DNA from: a virus
IMG/VR virus record: IMGVR_UViG_3300003177_000019
Span: 1-21,215 of that record
DNA length: 21,215 nucleotides
Direction: 5' to 3' (one strand)
The notes under the pieces were generated by a model, which ran no database searches, had not been told where the DNA came from, and was given only the letters and a program-made list of their open reading frames with translations. This document shows positions 1 to 15,101 of the stretch, in pieces; position 1 is the stretch's first letter, and each line of letters starts with the position of its first letter. The position numbers and the translations under genes were made by a program.

Positions 1-1
1 G

Positions 2-682
2 AGATTTAGTACAACAGTTTCTCTAACTTCTGAGAATCCAACTAAAATATGTTTCATCAACGAAGCTGATGGGTTTTCAGTTCAAGCAATGAATTCGTTG
101 AAAAATGTTATAGAAAAATTTAGTAAAAATATTAGATTTATCTTTGACACTAATCATGTAGAGAAACTTGTTGAACCTCTACGTTCTAGATGTGTTGAAA
201 TTGACTTCAATCCAACAAATGATGAGAAGCCTCAGATGATGAGAGATTTTCTTAAAAGAAGTGAAATGATATTGAATAATGAAGGTATTACGTCTTCTAA
301 AAAAGATATAGCAAATATCATAAAGACAGATTTCCCTGATATGAGAAAGATCGTGAACAATCTCCAAAAGTTTTCTGTTTCTGGTACATTAGTTATAGGT
401 GAAAGTTCAAGTGACGAACAACTGACATCTTTAATGGAAAGTATGAAATCTAAAAATTACACTAAGATCAGAGAAGCTGTGGCAAATATCACCAATCATG
501 ATAATATGTTACTAAAGTTGTTCTCGAATATGGATAAGCTGTTTAGAAAAGAAGATACTCCTCAGGTTGTTCTAATTTTAGGTGAAGCTAACTTTCAATC
601 AGGGTTTTGTATTTCAAAAGAGATTAACTTCTTGAATGCAGTAACAAAGCTACTTCAATCAGGTGTTGTTATAAATGACTGA
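2..682 (+). CDS. 44: Clamp loader large subunit gp44, C-terminal part (5' end outside window)
   Basis: AAA+ ATPase that, with gp62, opens the gp45 sliding clamp and loads it at primer-template junctions. The frame is open from the first bases of the window. It shows a Walker B-like segment (ICFINEADG, bases 44-70), then the clamp-loader SRC motif (EPLRSRC, near base 190). The region after it aligns with T4 gp44 (DEKPQMMRDFLKRSEMI; then FPDMRKIVNNL). The protein is therefore the C-terminal two thirds of gp44, with the Walker A loop upstream of the window. An internal ATG at 89 is not the start, because the conserved Walker B lies before it. The Walker B reads NEAD instead of the usual DEAD/DEFD, which is odd. 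The stop overlaps the start of the polymerase gene by 8 bases, as expected for a co-translated replication operon. Family identity is confident. Confidence 0.9.
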   Translation, partial: RFSTTVSLTSENPTKICFINEADGFSVQAMNSLKNVIEKFSKNIRFIFDTNHVEKLVEPLRSRCVEIDFNPTNDEKPQMMRDFLKRSEMILNNEGITSSKKDIANIIKTDFPDMRKIVNNLQKFSVSGTLVIGESSSDEQLTSLMESMKSKNYTKIREAVANITNHDNMLLKLFSNMDKLFRKEDTPQVVLILGEANFQSGFCISKEINFLNAVTKLLQSGVVIND

Positions 683-2255
683 TGTAAAATCTAAGGGATA
701 TATCTCGGTTTTCAAACACAGAGGGAAAGTATATGAGACTTTTAGATATAATGGAAAGAAATACACTTCTAAAGTAGAGAATTTCAAATACGAATTTTTC
801 ATCGAAGACAGAGAAGGTAAAGGTGAATTCACAGATTTAGAGACTGGAACAAAGAAACTGAAAACAATCAGATTTGATACTCCAAAGGAAATGTCTGAAA
901 AATTGGAGCAACTTAAGAATATTGGAATTGAGCCATATTCAACAATAAGTGTAGAATCTCAGTATAGATTCAAAACATATTATAAAAATAAAGCTCCATC
1001 TTTTCATAAAGTCATGTTTGATATTGAAACTGGTTTTAATGGTTCTTTCTTAAATGAGTATGGTGAACTAGATAGAGGTGTTGGTGGATTTCCTAAAGCT
1101 CAATATGCCAACGCTTCCATTGTATCTATTGGTCTTTATAGTTCTGAAAAGAAAATGTACTATATTTTTGGTGTTAAAGACTATAAAGTCACTGATTCTG
1201 ATGTTAGGTTTAAGAAATGTAAAGATGAATCTGAAATCATCATAAATATGTTTAGAACTCTTGACGCTTTACAGTGTGATATTCTAACTGGATGGAATGC
1301 TAATGGGTTTGACTTTCCATTCATTATCAATCGTATGAAAGCATTGAACATTCCTTTAGAGATTGTAGATGATTATCTACTTCAACCGAGCAACAAATCT
1401 CTAGAGACAAGTTTTGAGCGTCCGAGAACATACTACTTCATGGATTATATGGAACTTTATAAGAAATTCATATTTACACCAAGAGAAAAGTATTCATTGG
1501 ACTTTATTGGAAAAGCTGAACTTGGTGAGGGAAAATTAGATTATCTAGAAGATAGTACAGATTTAGAGGAACTTTATCAGAAAGATTACCAAACATTCAT
1601 TGATTATATGAAACAGGATATCCAAATAATAGTCGATTTAGATGCAAAGCTCAACCTATTAGATTTAGGTGTAGAGTTGTCAGCACTATATAATATAAAC
1701 TTATATGATGTATTTGGTACAGTTTTTCCTTGGGGAAACAAAATGTATTGTGAATCGTATCTTCAAGGTAAATGTCTTCCACGTGACTTCAAATATAAAG
1801 ACGAAAGCATGGATTTTGAAGGTGGGTGGGTTCATGCTAATCCTGGATTCTATAAATGGATTTTATCCTTTGATTTTGCTTCACTTTATCCAAGTATTAT
1901 TAGAGGGTATAATCTATGTCCAACCACTATCATAAAAGATGAAAATCTTCCAGATGAACTTAAATCACTTCAGAAAAAATATTTCAGTGATAGAGAAGCA
2001 AGCAATGTTTCCATCAGTAAACTTATAAATTTATCTGAAGAAGATGCTGAAGTCATTATGGAAACTTTAGTAAAATATAAAGTTTCAGTTTCTCCGACTG
2101 GTGATTTTTTCAGTGTAGAGAGACGAGGTTTTATTCCTGATATTATTGAAAGCATATATCAGCAAAGAAAAGCTGCGAAAAAATCTATGTTGAAATATCA
2201 GAGGGAAAGAGAGAGACTTTTGGAATATCTTGAAAAGAGAAATCAAATCAAATAG
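675..2255 (+). CDS. 43A: DNA polymerase gp43A: N-terminal domain, 3'-5' exonuclease and palm motif A
   Basis: N-terminal fragment of a family B replicative DNA polymerase (526 residues). Exonuclease motifs are visible: Exo I FDIETG (D116, E118), Exo II LTGWNANGFDFP (D213) and Exo III YMKQDIQIIVDLD. Polymerase motif A follows as DFASLYPS (D400), then the start of the fingers (IPDIIESIYQQRKAAKKSML). The frame ends at TAG in the fingers region, about 30-50 residues before the point where 43B picks up the alignment with T4 gp43. With 43B minus its intein the total is about 901 residues, close to T4 gp43 (898), so little or nothing has been lost. T4-related phages with gene 43 split into 43A and 43B by a mobile element are known, and the two chains there form one enzyme. 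The start ATG overlaps the end of gene 44. Confidence 0.93.
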   Translation: MTDVKSKGYISVFKHRGKVYETFRYNGKKYTSKVENFKYEFFIEDREGKGEFTDLETGTKKLKTIRFDTPKEMSEKLEQLKNIGIEPYSTISVESQYRFKTYYKNKAPSFHKVMFDIETGFNGSFLNEYGELDRGVGGFPKAQYANASIVSIGLYSSEKKMYYIFGVKDYKVTDSDVRFKKCKDESEIIINMFRTLDALQCDILTGWNANGFDFPFIINRMKALNIPLEIVDDYLLQPSNKSLETSFERPRTYYFMDYMELYKKFIFTPREKYSLDFIGKAELGEGKLDYLEDSTDLEELYQKDYQTFIDYMKQDIQIIVDLDAKLNLLDLGVELSALYNINLYDVFGTVFPWGNKMYCESYLQGKCLPRDFKYKDESMDFEGGWVHANPGFYKWILSFDFASLYPSIIRGYNLCPTTIIKDENLPDELKSLQKKYFSDREASNVSISKLINLSEEDAEVIMETLVKYKVSVSPTGDFFSVERRGFIPDIIESIYQQRKAAKKSMLKYQRERERLLEYLEKRNQIK

Positions 2256-2844
2256 TGAGCTTATATTTTGAATCTCACAGAGGAATCCATGATGAAAAGA
2301 AAACTGCTTATTGAAAAAGGTTGTGATATTAGATGGGTGGATAGATATTTGAATTTCATTGAATCTCAGTCAACTGAAAAGGTTGTTGGTGAAACGGATG
2401 AAAGGTTTAATCTTCTACTATAATCCAGAAACAAAAGAATCTGGAAGATTTTATGAAGGTACACAACCAGAAGGATTTATACAAGGAAAATTGAATGGAA
2501 TAGGTTTTGGTTATTTGAATAGTAAAGATAGAAAGACTGTCTTTGATATTTATGAAGGGAAAATGAAGAACATATCAATAGATGACATCGATGTATTAAA
2601 ACATGTGTATTCTGGGGTAAAGAAAGAAAAAATGTCATTTTTTGAGTTTGAAGGTGGTGTTTACTATGGTAATGGATATTTTCAGAAAGAATTGAAAAAG
2701 ATGTCAGGATTAGATGGTAAAAAATTTAGAGAATATTTTGGTTCACTTGAAAGTATGAATTACTATGAATTTAAGGAAAAGTTTATAGATTTAAAAATTC
2801 CTTTTAAATTTTATAGTAAATTAAGGGACGATTTAGTAAAATAG
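2255..2844 (+). pseudogene. Decayed homing endonuclease remnant between 43A and 43B
   Basis: This stretch has no single open frame. Three consecutive segments can be read in three frames: 2255-2311 (frame 2, SLYFESHRGIHDEKKTAY), about 2289-2400 (frame 3, LIEKGCDIRWVDRYLNFIES), and about 2398-2844 (frame 1, beginning GLIFYYNPETKESGRFYEG). Together they read like one protein with frame shifts near 2310 and 2400. The segment YYNPETKESGRFYEGTQPEGFIQGK resembles the region after the catalytic core in phage HNH homing endonucleases. The expected HH...N...H core is missing between the second and third segments, so it was probably deleted. The longest surviving frame could still make a roughly 149-residue peptide from the ATG at 2398, but no good ribosome site precedes it. 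The position, exactly between two halves of a split polymerase, fits the mobile element known to segment gene 43. HNH identity is inferred from pattern memory. Confidence 0.5.
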
Positions 2845-2884
2845 TGAAGCAAAATTTAAAACGAAATAATTTAAAAGGAATTAG

Positions 2885-4454
2885 ATGAAAATATACAGCG
2901 AAGAAGAGTTGGATACAATGTCCAACGAAGAAATACAGTCATTGATTTATGGATATGCAGGCTTAGAGTCTCAATTCAATAATCAACAAATGGCTTTAAA
3001 GGTATCACTTTAACTCATTGTTTGGAGCAATCTCAAACCCTATGTTTGTGTTATTCGATAAACAAATTGCAAGATCTATTACTTCTGGTGGTAGATTATA
3101 TGATAGATACTGTGGTGAAATGTTACAGAGAGAACTTAAGAATAAGTTTAATCCAGATTTTAGTCCATTGATACTTGGGGATACGGACTCTATTTACATT
3201 AGTGTGTCATATATTATAGATAATTTGATTAAAAGTGGAAAACTTGAAAATGATGATCTAGTTATTGCTAAATATATTGAAGATGTCATAGAACCTATTC
3301 TGGTTAAGATTAATAGAAGATCTTTAGATACACTCAACGATACATATAATGTTCTTAGACCAGAAGTTTTAGAGTATGACAGAGAGATTATTGCACGTTG
3401 TGTTACAGGTGAAACTGAGGTGATTGTAGAAAATGATTTAATGAAGATAGAAGAGTTATTTAACTCTTTTTCTGATTATAAGACATCTTCTAATGGTGTA
3501 GATTATGTTGACTGTTCATTATCAACTAAGTCATTTTCTTTGGAATGTGGTTTCATCGAGGACGATAGAATAGTTCGTGTTATGAGAAGAAAGAATACAG
3601 AACAGTTAGTGACCTTACATGATGTTGAGAGTGGTAAAGAATTAACTCTAACTGAAAGCCACGAAGTTCTAGTTAGGAACTTTAAAGAGACAAAATATAG
3701 TTGGGTCGAATCGAAAGATATAGATGTTGAATCAATATTGAAAAGATTTGTTCCTGGTGAAATTTCAGATGAATATGTGTATGATTTGGAAGTTGAAAAC
3801 AATCATAATTTTTTCGCAAATGGGATGCTGATACATAATTGCGGAATAGTGAACGGTAAGAAAAATTATGTTATGGATATTCTCAATAATGAAGGTACTG
3901 AATATCATAATGGTAAACTGAAGATAATTGGGTTACAAGTTAAAAAGACTAATATTCCAGGGTTCATCAGAAAAGAGTTATTAGAGTTACTGAAGATTCT
4001 ACTAAGAGGTGATGAAGTAACATTTCAATCTAGATATAAAAAATATAAAGAAGACTATATCAATATCCATCCTGATGACATTGCATTTCCAAAAGGGTGT
4101 AATATCTTAAGTGAAACTAAAGGTAGAGAATATACCCTTAGTGATAAAGGTATTCCAATCAATGTTAGATCTGCTTTGTTATATAATAGCTATATCCAGA
4201 AATATGGCACTAAATATGAGGAGATAACAACTGGGGAAAAGATAAAGTTCGTCTACCTAAAAACTCCTAACCCTATTGGTCAGAATGTTATTGGATATCC
4301 AAACAAGAAAGAATATAAAGATTTTCTTAAAGATGAAGGTCTAGATAAGTTTATAGACTATAAAAGAAGCTTTGAAGGAAATGTGTTCAAACCTCTTGAT
4401 GATTTGGTTAAAAATCGTGGTTGGGACTTTGAGAAGAAAAATACTCTCTTTTAA
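2885..4454 (+). CDS. 43B: DNA polymerase gp43B: fingers, palm motifs B and C, thumb; contains +1 frameshift and mini-intein
   Basis: C-terminal fragment of the family B polymerase. The ATG at 2885 follows a strong AAAAGGA site. The first 42 codons (MKIYSEEELDTM...QQMALKVSL) align with the T4 fingers helix, then a TAA follows at 3011-3013. Shifting +1 at CTT TAA C continues as NSLFGAISNPMF, exactly polymerase motif B (KxxxNSLYG in T4) with its lysine kept upstream of the shift. Downstream are motif C GDTDS (near 3177-3191), DREIIAR, a 147-residue intein, then CGIVNGKKNYV (the KKRY motif). The C-terminus ends EKKNTLF, where T4 has KKASLF followed by the clamp-binding tail DMFDF, so the tail is shortened. 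With the shift the precursor is 522 residues, or 375 after splicing. Without the shift the polymerase lacks an intact motif B. A sequencing error or real mutation is the alternative. Confidence 0.85.
3001..3014 (+). other. Candidate +1 frameshift site CTT TAA C in polymerase motif B
   Basis: Frame 2 reads AAG GTA TCA CTT TAA. If the P-site tRNA on CTT (3008-3010) slips to TTT (3009-3011), the next codon is AAC (3012-3014), giving VSL-NSLFGA. This is the same geometry as the bacterial RF2 recoding site CUU UGA C, with UAA as the stop. A short purine run AAAGG (2998-3002) lies five bases upstream of the CTT, where an internal Shine-Dalgarno-like element would sit, though it is weaker than in RF2. 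Recoding is inferred. A single extra T in the sequence would look the same. Confidence 0.5.
3399..3839 (+). mobile_element. Mini-intein in DNA polymerase gp43B (147 residues, no endonuclease domain)
   Basis: In-frame insertion between DREIIAR and CGIVNGKKNYV of the polymerase. It begins with Cys (block A: CVTGETEVIVEN) and has block B LTLTESHEVLV with the TxxH motif. It ends with block F/G VYDLEVENNHNFFANGMLIHN, with penultimate His and terminal Asn, followed by Cys +1 (codon 3840-3842). All residues needed for standard protein splicing are present. The length (147 residues) leaves no room for a LAGLIDADG or HNH domain, so this is a splicing-only mini-intein that cannot home by itself. The insertion point is beside the KKRY template-binding motif, not at the pol-a/b/c sites usual for archaeal family B polymerases. 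Confidence 0.9.
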
Positions 4455-4798: not shown

Positions 4799-5683
4799 AT
4801 GGCGTTAATAGATAAAATAAAAGGTAATAAACTGTTTAAGACTGCAGTTAGAAGTCCAGACTTACACAAAGATAGAGAATTTTTTCACGCTGGAAGTATT
4901 ACATTGAATCTACTTCTTAGTGGAAAGGTGAATGGTGGTATTGCAAGTAGTTCCGTCACTATGATTGCAGCGCAGCCAGCACACTTCAAGACAATTATTA
5001 CTATGATTGCTGCTGGGAATGCACAAAAGAAGGGTCACACTGTTGTTTGGTTTGATACTGAATTTGCATTTGATAAAGCCAATGCAGAAGCTTTTGGTAT
5101 GAGTACGGATGAAGATAAATTGATTTTGATTCAAGATAATAGTATCGAAAATGTTCAAAGTATTTTCGTCAACATGTTTGATAATTATAATGAAAAAGAA
5201 GATGGAAAAGTCTTTGTTGCGTTGGATAGTCTTGGAACCCTTGTCACAAGTAAAACATATGAAGATGCCATAACAGGAAATGATAAAGCTGATATGACAG
5301 TGGCTAAAAAGAGAAACACGTTCTCTAAAATTATGTTGGGTGCTAGTGGTCGTGGCGGATTCCCTATTGTCATCATCAACCACACTTATGCGTGTTTAAG
5401 CGGTGATACAATGGTTAAAACTAAAAATGTTCCATCTGGTGTATGTTTATCTTCATTAAACGTTGGAGAAGAAGTATTAACAACTAATGGGTTTGAAAGT
5501 GTCATTGATACTATGTATTACCCTGAATCTACTGTTTATTCTATAGAATTAGAAGACGGAAAGACCATAGAAGCAACAGCTGGTCATAAGTTTTTTGTTT
5601 CTTTTGAAGTTGATGGTGTGAAAGAGAGAAAATGGGTAAAGGTTGAAGATTTAAATGAAGACATGGAATTATTGGAAAATTAA
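4799..5683 (+). CDS. uvsX: Recombinase UvsX N-terminal half fused to a split N-intein
   Basis: UvsX is the T4 RecA-like ATPase that forms filaments on ssDNA for strand exchange and recombination-dependent replication. Residues 1-198 match the UvsX N-terminal half: a Walker A region at about 57-66 (AAQPAHFKT; T4 has AGPSKSFKS), FDTEFA with the catalytic-type glutamate at about 88, Walker B VFVALDSLG at 138-146, and IINHTYA at 192-198. From Cys199 the sequence becomes intein (CLSGDTMVKT; TxxH as TAGH) and stops at residue 294. The recombinase C-half is encoded separately at 6920-7489, so activity needs protein trans-splicing. The start follows AAAGGAAATAT. The stop TAA overlaps the ATG of the endonuclease gene (TAATG). 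The Walker A lacks the first canonical Gly, a variation partly shared with T4 UvsX. Confidence 0.92.
   Translation: MALIDKIKGNKLFKTAVRSPDLHKDREFFHAGSITLNLLLSGKVNGGIASSSVTMIAAQPAHFKTIITMIAAGNAQKKGHTVVWFDTEFAFDKANAEAFGMSTDEDKLILIQDNSIENVQSIFVNMFDNYNEKEDGKVFVALDSLGTLVTSKTYEDAITGNDKADMTVAKKRNTFSKIMLGASGRGGFPIVIINHTYACLSGDTMVKTKNVPSGVCLSSLNVGEEVLTTNGFESVIDTMYYPESTVYSIELEDGKTIEATAGHKFFVSFEVDGVKERKWVKVEDLNEDMELLEN
5393..5680 (+). mobile_element. N-terminal half of a naturally split intein (96 residues) in UvsX
   Basis: Begins with Cys1 directly after the UvsX segment INHTYA. Block A is CLSGDTMVKTK and block B is GKTIEATAGHKFFV with TxxH. The frame ends about 20 residues after the FEVDGVKERKWVKVEDL segment, the usual breakpoint of natural split N-inteins. 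The partner C-intein lies at 6920-7024. Confidence 0.92.
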
Positions 5684-6930
5684 TGTACATAATATATATG
5701 CACACTTGTACCATTACAAATAAATCATATATTGGTTTAACTAAATATACAATCGAAGAAAGATTTGAAGGTCATGTTAAATCATCTGAAAAACCAAAAT
5801 TTCATTTTCATCGAGCAATTAAAAAATATGGAAGAGACTCTTTTGTCTCAGAAATCTTAGAGAGTGGTATAGATACACTCGATAAAGCAAACGAGAGGGA
5901 ACAATTTTTCATATCTAAATATGACACCTTCCATAATGGTTACAATATGACAATTGGTGGAGATACTCTATATTCTTCAACAAAAGGTAAAACATATGAA
6001 GAAATATATGGTGAAGAATTAGCAAGAAAGAAAAAAGAACATCTTAGATGTCTATATAAAAATAGATATATATCAGATTCTTGGAGAGAAAACATGAAAA
6101 AGAATCATTGGTCTACATATAGATGTGCTTTTAGTAAGAAGAATATTGTGTTCTTACTCCCAGATGGTGAAATATTATATAGAGAAGAAATAGAAGATTC
6201 GGATGAAATTAATATTCCATCTTCATTGTTTAAGAAACATTTATATATGGATGGGGATGCTCATCGTTCTTCTGCTGATGGTTGGTCTTATCTTGTTGTC
6301 GATGAATATCAAGATAAGGAATCATATAGATCTAAATTAATTGAGATATCTATCAGTTTTTGGGAAGACAAACTTGATCCAAAGTATAAATATGTGAGAA
6401 AGATGGATAGGATGTTACCTGTTTGTATCTTATGTGGTAATAATATAATTGAATATGAAAAAAGATGTTCATATTTTTGTAAGACTTGTGAAACAACTGA
6501 AATTGCATTCAAGTTTTATAGAAATAAATCTTTTTTCATTGAACAAATGAAATATGTAAGTATAGAAGAGTCGATGAGACGTTTGAAATTATATAAAGAC
6601 GTAAGATTTCAAAAATTTATGAACCCTCTTAAAAATCTTTCATACATGAGAACTTTCAAGAGTGTTGGTGTTATAAGAGATGTCATTAATAAGTTGTGTA
6701 AATTTGAATATAATTCTTTTGAAGAAATTGGAATGGACAATAATCAAATTAGAAAAATGTATTACTCTTTTAGAGGATATTCAGAAAAAGAGTCGGAAGA
6801 TAAGATCACTTTTATACAAAGGGAAAGAAGCCAAAGATGCGTTGAATATTGGACTAAAGGAGGATTTAGCTTAGATGAAGCAAAGAAACAAGTTAGCTTT
6901 AATCAAAAAAGGAAGAAAAATGAAAATTAA
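5683..6930 (+). CDS. GIY-YIG homing endonuclease lodged in a fractured uvsX
   Basis: A 415-residue free-standing endonuclease gene between the two uvsX halves. The N-terminal GIY-YIG nuclease is clear: YIIYMHTCTITNKSYIG at residues 2-18, the conserved Arg in EERF, KYGRDSF, the metal-binding Glu in EREQFFISKYD, and NGYNMTIGG. A Cys4 zinc-finger-like block (CILCG ... CSYFCKTC) sits in the middle at about residues 247-269. The C-terminus has two helical repeats of the form G-F/Y-S-x2-E-(A/S) (RGYSEKESEDKI; GGFSLDEAKKQV), like the DNA-binding tails of phage homing enzymes. Its ATG overlaps the upstream stop by one base and its stop overlaps the C-intein ORF by 11 bases, so translation of the three is probably coupled. 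It is expected to cut intein-free uvsX alleles and spread the element. The target site is not deducible here. Confidence 0.9.
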   Translation: MYIIYMHTCTITNKSYIGLTKYTIEERFEGHVKSSEKPKFHFHRAIKKYGRDSFVSEILESGIDTLDKANEREQFFISKYDTFHNGYNMTIGGDTLYSSTKGKTYEEIYGEELARKKKEHLRCLYKNRYISDSWRENMKKNHWSTYRCAFSKKNIVFLLPDGEILYREEIEDSDEINIPSSLFKKHLYMDGDAHRSSADGWSYLVVDEYQDKESYRSKLIEISISFWEDKLDPKYKYVRKMDRMLPVCILCGNNIIEYEKRCSYFCKTCETTEIAFKFYRNKSFFIEQMKYVSIEESMRRLKLYKDVRFQKFMNPLKNLSYMRTFKSVGVIRDVINKLCKFEYNSFEEIGMDNNQIRKMYYSFRGYSEKESEDKITFIQRERSQRCVEYWTKGGFSLDEAKKQVSFNQKRKKNEN

Positions 6931-7024
6931 GAAAATTATGAAAAATTCGAAGAAAATGGATGTATATGATATTGAGACAAAGTCTCATAATTATATTCTT
7001 TCCAATGGGATCATTAGTCATAAT
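6920..7024 (+). mobile_element. C-terminal half of the split UvsX intein (35 residues)
   Basis: Contains block F (MDVYDIETKSHNYILSNG) and block G (IISHN with penultimate His and terminal Asn), followed by Ser +1 of the recombinase (7025-7027). The lysine-rich start (MKIKKIMKNSKK) opposes the acidic end of the N-intein (KVEDLNEDMELLEN). This charge pairing is typical of natural split inteins and drives their association. Confidence 0.92.
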
Positions 7025-7489
7025 TCCATGAGTATGTATGGTGGTAACTCGATCAGTGGTGGTTCAGGTGGAATTTATACTGCGTCTACAGTTGTTGAGA
7101 TTTCGTCAAGAGCCAAAGAGAAAGATGGAACTGAAATCACAGGAAGTATTTTTACAGCTAATGTAAGAAAGGGTCGAATGTCTAAAGAGAATTCTAAATT
7201 GAAATTTTTAGTTACTTATGAAGATGGTATCAACCCATGGTATGGTTTACTTGAAGATGCACTAGAAGCTGGTGTTGTTGAAAAACCAAATGTTGGTTTT
7301 TATTCTAGACCTTGTGTTGAAGATGATAAGAAGTTCAGAGAGAAACAAATCTATACTTCTGATTTTTGGATGCCAATCTTTAAGAACACTGATTTTAAAG
7401 AATATCTGGAAACAAAATATAGTTATATCAATTCATTAGATGAAGATTCTAGTTCATATGATGTAGAAACGATAGAATTTGAAGATTAA
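6920..7489 (+). CDS. uvsX: Split C-intein fused to recombinase UvsX C-terminal half
   Basis: Residues 1-35 are a C-intein (ending ISHN) and residues 36-189 are the UvsX C-half. The C-half begins SMSMYGGNSISGGSGGIY, matching the glycine-rich loop L2 segment of T4 UvsX (TVMGGGTGPMYSADTV). It continues with KGRMSKENSKLKFLVTYEDG and the conserved INPWYGLLEDALEAGVVEKP (T4: IDPYSGLLDMALELGFVVKP). ATG 6920 is chosen over the in-frame ATG at 6875 because AAGGA lies six bases before it, and because 35 residues is the typical C-intein length. The acidic tail (SLDEDSSSYDVETIEFED) is shorter than in T4. After trans-splicing UvsX would be 198 + 154 = 352 residues. T4 UvsX has 391. Confidence 0.92.
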   Translation: MKIKKIMKNSKKMDVYDIETKSHNYILSNGIISHNSMSMYGGNSISGGSGGIYTASTVVEISSRAKEKDGTEITGSIFTANVRKGRMSKENSKLKFLVTYEDGINPWYGLLEDALEAGVVEKPNVGFYSRPCVEDDKKFREKQIYTSDFWMPIFKNTDFKEYLETKYSYINSLDEDSSSYDVETIEFED

Positions 7490-12753: not shown

Positions 12754-13266
12754 TCATTTATAGAATTCTGTTTGTATAGAAAATTCAGTAAACAGCTTTT
12801 CCAGTTCTTTTGTTAGTTTACCAGATTTTGGAAAAACTGGAATTTTCTTTCTATATTCTGAGTTCTTAAGTTCTTTAACTAACTTATTATAAGAAGACTT
12901 TTTAAGTTTCTTATCTTTAGGTTTTTCTGTTGGGTGTATATATGGTAAATTGTCTTGGTCTAAATAGTCTGCTAAATTTCTTAACAGTTCTGGTAATGAT
13001 ATGTCTTTCTTATGTAATCCAAGTCTTCTATAAGAATTAGTTATCTTTCCTTCCCATGAGTTACAATTTCTACAAATTACACCTCTACATAGTCCTGCTC
13101 CATTTTCACCTATTTCCTGGTCTTTGAATAGTTTATGTTGATGATCTAATGTTGTATCAGAATATTCTATTTTTTCTTTACATATTGGGCAAATCTCATT
13201 TTGTTCTTTATGTAATTTTTCTCTTAGATTTTTAACTTCAGATGTTTTCAGTTGTTTTAGTTCCAT
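12754..13266 (-). CDS. 49: Endonuclease VII (Holliday junction resolvase) gp49, minus strand
   Basis: Resolves branched DNA before packaging. 170 residues from ATG 13266 (MELKQLKTSE). An upstream in-frame ATG at 13299 would add 11 residues but lacks a ribosome site. The four zinc cysteines are CPIC (26, 29) and CRNC (65, 68). The catalytic region TTLDHQH (Asp41, His42, His44) matches T4 LDHDH, and RGVICRNCNSWEGKI matches T4 RGLLCNLCNAAEGQM, including the metal-binding Asn after the last Cys. The dimerisation helix and PYIHPTEKP (T4 NNIHPNFVG) follow. It is the only minus-strand gene in the window, convergent with gene 52 and divergent from the nucleotidase gene, so it must have its own promoter near 13270-13320 on the minus strand. 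It stops with TGA. Confidence 0.93.
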   Translation of the reverse strand: MELKQLKTSEVKNLREKLHKEQNEICPICKEKIEYSDTTLDHQHKLFKDQEIGENGAGLCRGVICRNCNSWEGKITNSYRRLGLHKKDISLPELLRNLADYLDQDNLPYIHPTEKPKDKKLKKSSYNKLVKELKNSEYRKKIPVFPKSGKLTKELEKLFTEFSIQTEFYK

Positions 13267-13304
13267 ATTTAAGCTCTTTTTAATAATTTTTAGGTACAAT
13301 TAGC

Positions 13305-14363: not shown

Positions 14364-14882
14364 TTGAAATATGCTCCATACAGTTATAGTCGAATGTCTA
14401 CAGCTGAATCTTGTAAGAAAAAATTCAAACTTTCTTACATAGATAAAGTTAAGATCGAAAAGAGTAGCAATTTTGCTCTAGAAAAGGGTGGGTTATTACA
14501 TGAAATGATAGAGAATGATTTCCTTCATAACATTAAGATAGATATATCATCTAAATTGACTCAAATTGGACAGCTCAAGACATTAAATTCTATTTTTGAT
14601 ATATTGGTATCAAATAAGAGTTATATTCTCCTCAAGGACAAATATAAGTTATCGAAAGAAAAATATGTAGAACTTGGAATTGGATTTGATGATAATTGGA
14701 ATCCAGTAGAATACAACAAGGGTACAAAATTTAGAGGGTATATAGATTTAGTTATTTTTAATGAAGATTCAGCTATAATAGTTGATTGGAAATCTGGAAA
14801 ATTTAAAGAACATCAAGATTTTTCTCAGGTGTCGTTATATTCGTTGTGGGTGATGAAGATGTATCCAAATATCAAGAAGTGA
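14364..14882 (+). CDS. PD-(D/E)XK nuclease (Cas4/RecB-like), N-terminal catalytic part, ends at in-frame TGA
   Basis: Cas4/RecB-type exonuclease core of 172 residues, starting at TTG two bases after the previous stop. Motifs in order: YSYSRMSTAESCKKKFKLSY with the first cluster cysteine (Cys17), GGLLHEMIE (His46), RGYIDLV (Asp128), IIVDWKSG (Asp141, Lys143) and QVSLYSLW (Gln155, Tyr159). All nuclease residues are present. The frame then hits TGA at 14880-14882. The same frame continues with YCMYFYIESL and a three-cysteine C-terminus typical of iron-sulfur nucleases of this family. The stop therefore cuts a continuous beta strand, not a domain boundary. Possibilities are a recent nonsense mutation, stop readthrough, two-chain translation, or a sequence error. 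The likely role is DNA end processing or host DNA degradation. Confidence 0.8.
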   Translation: MKYAPYSYSRMSTAESCKKKFKLSYIDKVKIEKSSNFALEKGGLLHEMIENDFLHNIKIDISSKLTQIGQLKTLNSIFDILVSNKSYILLKDKYKLSKEKYVELGIGFDDNWNPVEYNKGTKFRGYIDLVIFNEDSAIIVDWKSGKFKEHQDFSQVSLYSLWVMKMYPNIKK

Positions 14883-14888
14883 TATTGT

Positions 14889-15101
14889 ATGTATTTCTAT
14901 ATAGAATCTTTAAAGATAAACAAAAGAATTTTATATAGAGAAGATATAAACAATCTAACAGAAACATTCCAAACAAGAATAGACAATATCGAAAACACAG
15001 AAGAATTTGATAAGAATGTAACAAAGTTATGTTTATGGTGTGACTATCTAAAAGAAGGTCATTGTGAACTTTCAGATAAAGAACTAATGAAAATTTTATA
15101 G
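14889..15101 (+). CDS. PD-(D/E)XK nuclease, C-terminal iron-sulfur cysteine part
   Basis: 70 residues, in the same frame as the catalytic part and separated from it only by TGA TAT TGT. It begins MYFYIESLKINKRILYREDI and ends with CLWCDYLKEGHC, a C-x2-C-x7-C cluster. Together with Cys17 of the catalytic part this would make the four-cysteine [4Fe-4S] site of Cas4/AddB-like nucleases. The ATG at 14889 has only a weak ribosome-site candidate (AAGAAG about nine bases before it). Separate translation is possible but not convincing. Joined by readthrough, the protein would be 245 residues, a usual size for the family. Confidence 0.65.
   Translation: MYFYIESLKINKRILYREDINNLTETFQTRIDNIENTEEFDKNVTKLCLWCDYLKEGHCELSDKELMKIL

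Follow-up and report, generated by a model that had tools for sequence, protein, structure and literature searches.

An endonuclease-free mini-intein beside the KKxY motif of a split T4-type phage DNA polymerase

We analyzed a 21,215-nucleotide stretch of viral DNA (IMG/VR record IMGVR_UViG_3300003177_000019, positions 1 to 21,215; hereafter the window), in which the T4-type family B DNA polymerase (PolB) gene, gp43, is divided into two pieces (Table 1). The first piece, gp43A, matched PHROG 262 (E=3.7e-105), gp43 of phage RB69 (E=5.7e-31), and the Pfam families DNA_pol_B and DNA_pol_B_exo1. It is separated from the second piece, gp43B, by an insertion whose 148-aa ORF had no family match in profile searches that included Pfam and NCBIfam. 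Such 43A/43B gene splits are mentioned as known in Aeromonas phages in a passage of PMC2988022 that cites Petrov et al. 2010. An Rfam search of the window returned no intron and no other RNA. Within gp43B, positions 3399-3839 encode a class-1 mini-intein, a stop-free run of 147 codons (CVTGETEV...FFANGMLIHN) followed immediately by a Cys codon, with DREIIAR before it and CGIVNGKKNYV after it.

Table 1. Positions of the polymerase pieces, the mini-intein, and other elements in the window
Feature	Position	Strand	Evidence
gp43A: exonuclease and N-terminal palm/fingers of T4-type DNA polymerase	675..2255	+	PHROG 262, Pfam, RB69 gp43
43A/43B insertion	2256..2884	+	position between two gp43 pieces
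148-aa ORF in 43A/43B insertion, starting MKGLIFYYNPETKESGRFYEGTQPEGFIQGK	2398-2844	+	
gp43B start, frame one, MKIYSEEELD...QQMALKVSL	2885..3010	+	AAAAGGAATTAG-ATG start context; TAA at 3011-3013
gp43B N-extein, +1 frame: NSLFGAISN (motif B), motif C LGDTDSIY, ...DREIIAR	3012..3398	+	alignment to RB69 566-689
Motif C GDTDSIY, uninterrupted	3177..3197	+	translation, alignment
147-aa class-1 mini-intein of gp43B	3399..3839	+	Pfam, NCBIfam, alignment, predicted structure
Intein Cys1	3399-3401	+	
Intein T85	3651-3653	+	
Intein H88	3660-3662	+	
Intein block F VYDLEVENNHNFFANG	from 3777	+	
Intein His146-Asn147	3834-3839	+	
gp43B C-extein, Cys+1-GIVNG-KKNY to ...KKNTLF	3840..4451	+	RB69 gp43 ~700-898; PHROG 1918, 262
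KKxY (KKNY) of C-extein	3858-3869	+	
uvsX intein N-half	Cys at 5393 to 5680		
GIY-YIG homing endonuclease ORF inside uvsX	5683-6930		NCBIfam TIGR01453, PHROG 314
uvsX intein C-half	ends HN at ~7024, then S+1		
Endonuclease VII/HNH-type ORF	12754-13299	-	Pfam PF02945, E=1.5e-12

The Pfam family Intein_splicing matched the insert above its gathering score (E=1.9e-11), while the NCBIfam matches begin at intein residue 1 (intein_Nterm, E=7e-11) and end at residue 147 (intein_Cterm, E=2.9e-8). Such agreement, with the profile matches starting and stopping at the two junctions and the flanks aligning as one protein, goes far beyond what chance would give, and the coordinates that an earlier note on this DNA had given for a 147-residue mini-intein between the two flanks proved exact. 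All class-1 residues are present (C1, T85xxH88, H146-N147, and C+1), and T85, H88, and N147 are invariant across an alignment of 12 rows assembled from IMG/VR inteins (A3). An AlphaFold model based on this alignment has a confident Hint fold (mean pLDDT 91.7, pTM 0.86). With this model, Foldseek retrieved 59 PDB chains at E<=0.001, the best of which was 9hth, the PolB1 intein of phage Aes123 (E=5.6e-11), and VIA-align gave tied Z values of ~20 to PI-PfuI, PI-PkoII, and Aes123 PolB1. The GC content of the intein (31.7%) does not differ from that of the extein (30.6%). Pfam and NCBIfam matched the splicing domain only and no nested homing endonuclease, and because an endonuclease domain would not fit into 147 residues, the earlier claim that the intein lacks one is upheld.

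Judging from these residues, the intein should splice by the standard class-1 route. An N-S acyl shift at Cys1, aided by T85 and H88, would be followed by transfer to Cys+1, and cyclization of Asn147, aided by His146, and an S-N shift would then join DREIIAR to CGIVNGKKNYV. The ligated peptide (...DREIIARCGIVNGK...) would re-form the loop that precedes KKxY, a motif contacting the template. In the unspliced form, a few residues would separate a 17-kDa domain from KKxY, and polymerase activity therefore probably depends on splicing.

To place the insertion point, the 331-aa extein was aligned to RB69 and T4 gp43 with the intein omitted, and the alignment was unbroken over the junction (E=9e-31 to 8e-23). 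Counted from this alignment, the RB69 equivalent of the insertion point is the loop 690-699, just before KKRY (705-708): RB69 gp43 reads ...DREAIA(689), loop 690-699, G700-FWTG-KKRY, and the window reads DREIIAR^CGIVNG-KKNY. We refer to this position as the KKRY-site. Since motif C, the usual PolB intein site, is intact and the insert lies on the KKxY side, a motif C allele (GD^TDS or DTD^S insertion) is ruled out, confirming the earlier placement near KKxY and away from motifs A, B, and C.

The two other classic PolB intein positions are taken to be at other catalytic motifs. Archaeal and Mimivirus PolB inteins occupy positions I, II, and III, the last of which (Pol-c) lies between YGD and TDS at motif C (PMC549080), and haloarchaeal PolB intein sites have been named polB-a to polB-d (PMC4071816). 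The window intein is like the archaeal, Mimivirus, and haloarchaeal inteins in using a conserved site of family B polymerases, whereas it differs from the Pol-c intein at motif C in lying before KKxY. No published description of an intein at the gp43 KKRY-site was found in a search that had InBase and most subscription papers outside its range and in which the position of haloarchaeal polB-d was unstated.

The reading frame of gp43B is itself broken at motif B, where KVSL stops at TAA and NSLFG resumes in the +1 frame (3010/3012). Consequently, expression of gp43B requires frameshifting unless the record contains an indel; the break could reflect programmed frameshifting, mutation, or an assembly indel. 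The +1 frameshift site of prfB is AGGGGGTATCTTTGAC. The gp43B break coincides exactly with CTT TAA C, which AAAGG precedes by five bases (3000-3014), and this sequence, AAAGGTATCACTTTAAC, resembles the prfB site with slightly longer spacing. No other PolB gene with a CTTTAA frame break was found among 5 matches. It is conceivable, if doubtful, that ribosomes are programmed to slip into the +1 frame at CTT TAA C within motif B, as in prfB, and that gp43B is then spliced at a previously undescribed PolB site before assembly with gp43A. A mutation or assembly indel is likelier, since a second gene in the window, a PD-(D/E)XK nuclease gene (14364-15101), is interrupted by an in-frame TGA (14880-14882). 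PDDEXK_1 matches both parts of that gene, the second weakly.

These two interruptions raise the question of whether gp43B is simply broken, or its assembly marred by indels, with the intein a passenger of no further importance. Both the +1 break and the in-frame TGA point in this direction. However, the remaining gp43B frame is fully open for 484 codons and preserves motif C, KKxY, and every residue of the intein, and the break coincides with a prfB-like slip sequence, so that we consider this explanation unlikely. The earlier note had pictured an active polymerase of two chains, one of which must splice itself; this picture is plausible and the gene split is real, but the +1 break inside 43B had been overlooked.

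The KKRY-site is also occupied elsewhere. Searching GenBank phages at the protein level with the window intein as query identified Vibrio phage vB_VmeM-32 (KU160494), whose gp43B carries an intein at the same residue (DREVIAD^C...HN^CGFWTSKKRY). This intein has ~138 aa, no nuclease, and Cys1/Cys+1, is 29% identical to the window intein, and has its reading frame broken near the start of the C-terminal block. The gene is annotated merely as two DNA polymerase ORFs, and the intein is unmentioned in the paper on this phage (PMC6483233). At positions 1-4447 of vB_VmeM-32 (locus L001), gp43 is in at least four pieces; its 43A contains an HNH (I-LimII-like) ORF, and a DUF559/VSR-like ORF lies between 43A and 43B.

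We also scanned 2.9 million IMG/VR contigs with the pattern HN-C-G-x4-KK-x-Y and identified two PolB genes with an intein at the KKRY-site, in contigs L016 (IMGVR_UViG_3300026518_000344; REIISD^C...HN^CGVWTAKKKY, Cys1/Cys+1) and L019 (EVIAS^C...HN^CGFWTAKKRY). The gp43 of L019, on the minus strand of its locus, is unsplit and contains a motif C mini-intein of 159 aa with Ser1 as well as a KKRY-site mini-intein of 142 aa with Cys1, indicating that the KKRY-site can also be occupied in an undivided polymerase gene. The break in the L016 gene lies within the intein. Its N-half runs into ~250 extra residues ending in an HNH-like motif, read by eye as LDHLVPI...RNLEVIPKIDNIKK, and the C-half is encoded by the next ORF, which starts at an overlapping ATGA preceded by AAGGA. 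The extension had no Pfam match, and its identity as a nuclease is unsupported by profile library matches; it matched PHROG 5104 (E 2.9e-6), a family without known function, and its C-terminal part resembles hypothetical proteins scattered in T4-type and other phages. Another fractured gene lies in L016 (836-2140, minus), where a DnaB/gp41-type helicase gene ends in an intein N-half.

Ser/Thr+1 versions of the site in IMG/VR gave unrelated matches only, and none of the 34 matches to the Cys version in 84,980 cellular genomes was a polymerase. No relatives of the whole 43B ORF were found in IMG/VR with its own peptides as query, and no DNA-level relatives among GenBank phages. Four cyanophage matches (H2-H5), which apparently spanned the intein, turned out to be gp43 of the ordinary, undivided kind, with no insert at the site.

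The KKRY-site was empty in ~22 other phage PolB loci examined, as well as in RB69 and T4. One of these loci, L143, belongs to a close relative of L016 (75-85% DNA identity in matched stretches), and the flanks of its empty site share 78% and 82% identity with the L016 flanks. Motif C of L143 carries a split intein whose halves enclose a DUF559/REase-like gene, and the comparison with L016 thus indicates that close relatives differ in intein presence or absence at both sites. The +1 residue is K, R, T, or A in most empty alleles and C in occupied ones; this difference suggests that the Cys arrived with the insert.

The four inteins at the KKRY-site share 21-31% pairwise identity and are no closer to one another than to motif C inteins. 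In the phylogenetic tree, 8 motif C inteins grouped together (support 98/99), and the window intein and its three same-site counterparts fell outside this group on long branches, without support for a single clade of these four rows. Their position argues against a recent jump from motif C. Among the best 80 IMG/VR relatives of the window intein, ~25 occupied motif C of PolB, and the KKRY-site was occupied by none. The identities and branches are compatible with repeated, independent invasion of the KKRY-site by the four inteins as well as with a common origin.

The closest structural match comes from a comparable gene. The PolB1 inteins of Aes123 and Aes508 (Aeromonas phages, Straboviridae; PDB 9hth) likewise lie in the gp43B half of a split T4-type polymerase. 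In contrast to the window intein, with Cys1/Cys+1 on the KKxY side, they are cysteine-less, use Ser1/Ser+1, and sit at motif C (DTD^SVY). They are also naturally split, their halves being separated by a VSR-like nuclease gene, whereas the window intein is contiguous, and their KKRY-site is empty. In Aes508, gp43 is a divided gene that also contains a group I intron and a split intein; a split gp43 with an intein is already on record in this phage, though at motif C.

Taken together, the KKRY-site is best read as a position in phage gp43 that inteins occupy rarely but recurrently and that is separate from the common one at motif C. The earlier note had suggested that the site may be new. We found no earlier description of it, but it is not unique to the window, and the locus represents a real, modestly new case of a mini-intein at an apparently undescribed PolB site.

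Given three other phages with inteins at the same site, one of them joined to a putative nuclease, the window intein most likely represents what is left of an ordinary mobile intein. The HNH-like extension in L016 and the empty site in L143 fit a mobile element whose nuclease was lost in the window phage. Our overall reading, with a probability of about 0.88, is of a class-1 mini-intein that would excise itself from gp43B at a rare but recurrent site and that is best explained as an endonuclease-free version of an intein which formerly homed there. The earlier alternative of an intein either fixed or dependent on another nuclease in trans is not forced, as L016 has an HNH-like extension on the intein itself and L143 has no intein.

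Another possibility is that the intein is still mobile via a free-standing nuclease in trans, encoded by the GIY-YIG ORF, the endonuclease VII-like ORF, or a gene beyond the 21-kb record. The homing-type GIY-YIG ORF is found 1.2 kb further downstream (NCBIfam TIGR01453 E=2.3e-16; PHROG 314), and the known split gp43 intein of Aes508 has its separate VSR-like nuclease gene beside it. However, the GIY-YIG gene is located exactly between the halves of the uvsX intein, making uvsX its obvious target, and the candidate nuclease of L016 is joined to the intein itself, which renders mobility in trans improbable.

The intein may also have been retained for conditional splicing that controls polymerase production or activity, rather than as a remnant. 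Every splicing residue is kept in a compact fold without a nuclease, and the site adjoins a DNA-contacting motif, both of which would suit such a role. Nevertheless, empty alleles are the rule among related phages, the window intein bears no sign of a sensor, and purifying selection on splicing alone would keep these residues, given that loss of splicing would probably inactivate the polymerase. We regard a regulatory role as very improbable.

The KKRY-site adds a position to the map of phage and archaeal PolB inteins, one that is used repeatedly in polymerases whether split or not, by inteins that either carry a nuclease-like extension or lack it. Its natural occurrence in empty, full, and reduced form may allow the gain and loss of homing to be studied, and the small Cys-type mini-intein may serve as a splicing tool.

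Other mobile-looking elements were observed in the window. The uvsX gene (4799-7489) is fractured by a split intein, with the intein halves apart and the nuclease gene between them, a fractured-gene layout unlike that of the contiguous gp43B intein. The uvsX of vB_VmeM-32 also has a split intein with a GIY-YIG gene, at a different residue from that of the window. The endonuclease VII-like ORF, which lies on the strand opposite to the surrounding genes, is possibly a free-standing mobile nuclease.
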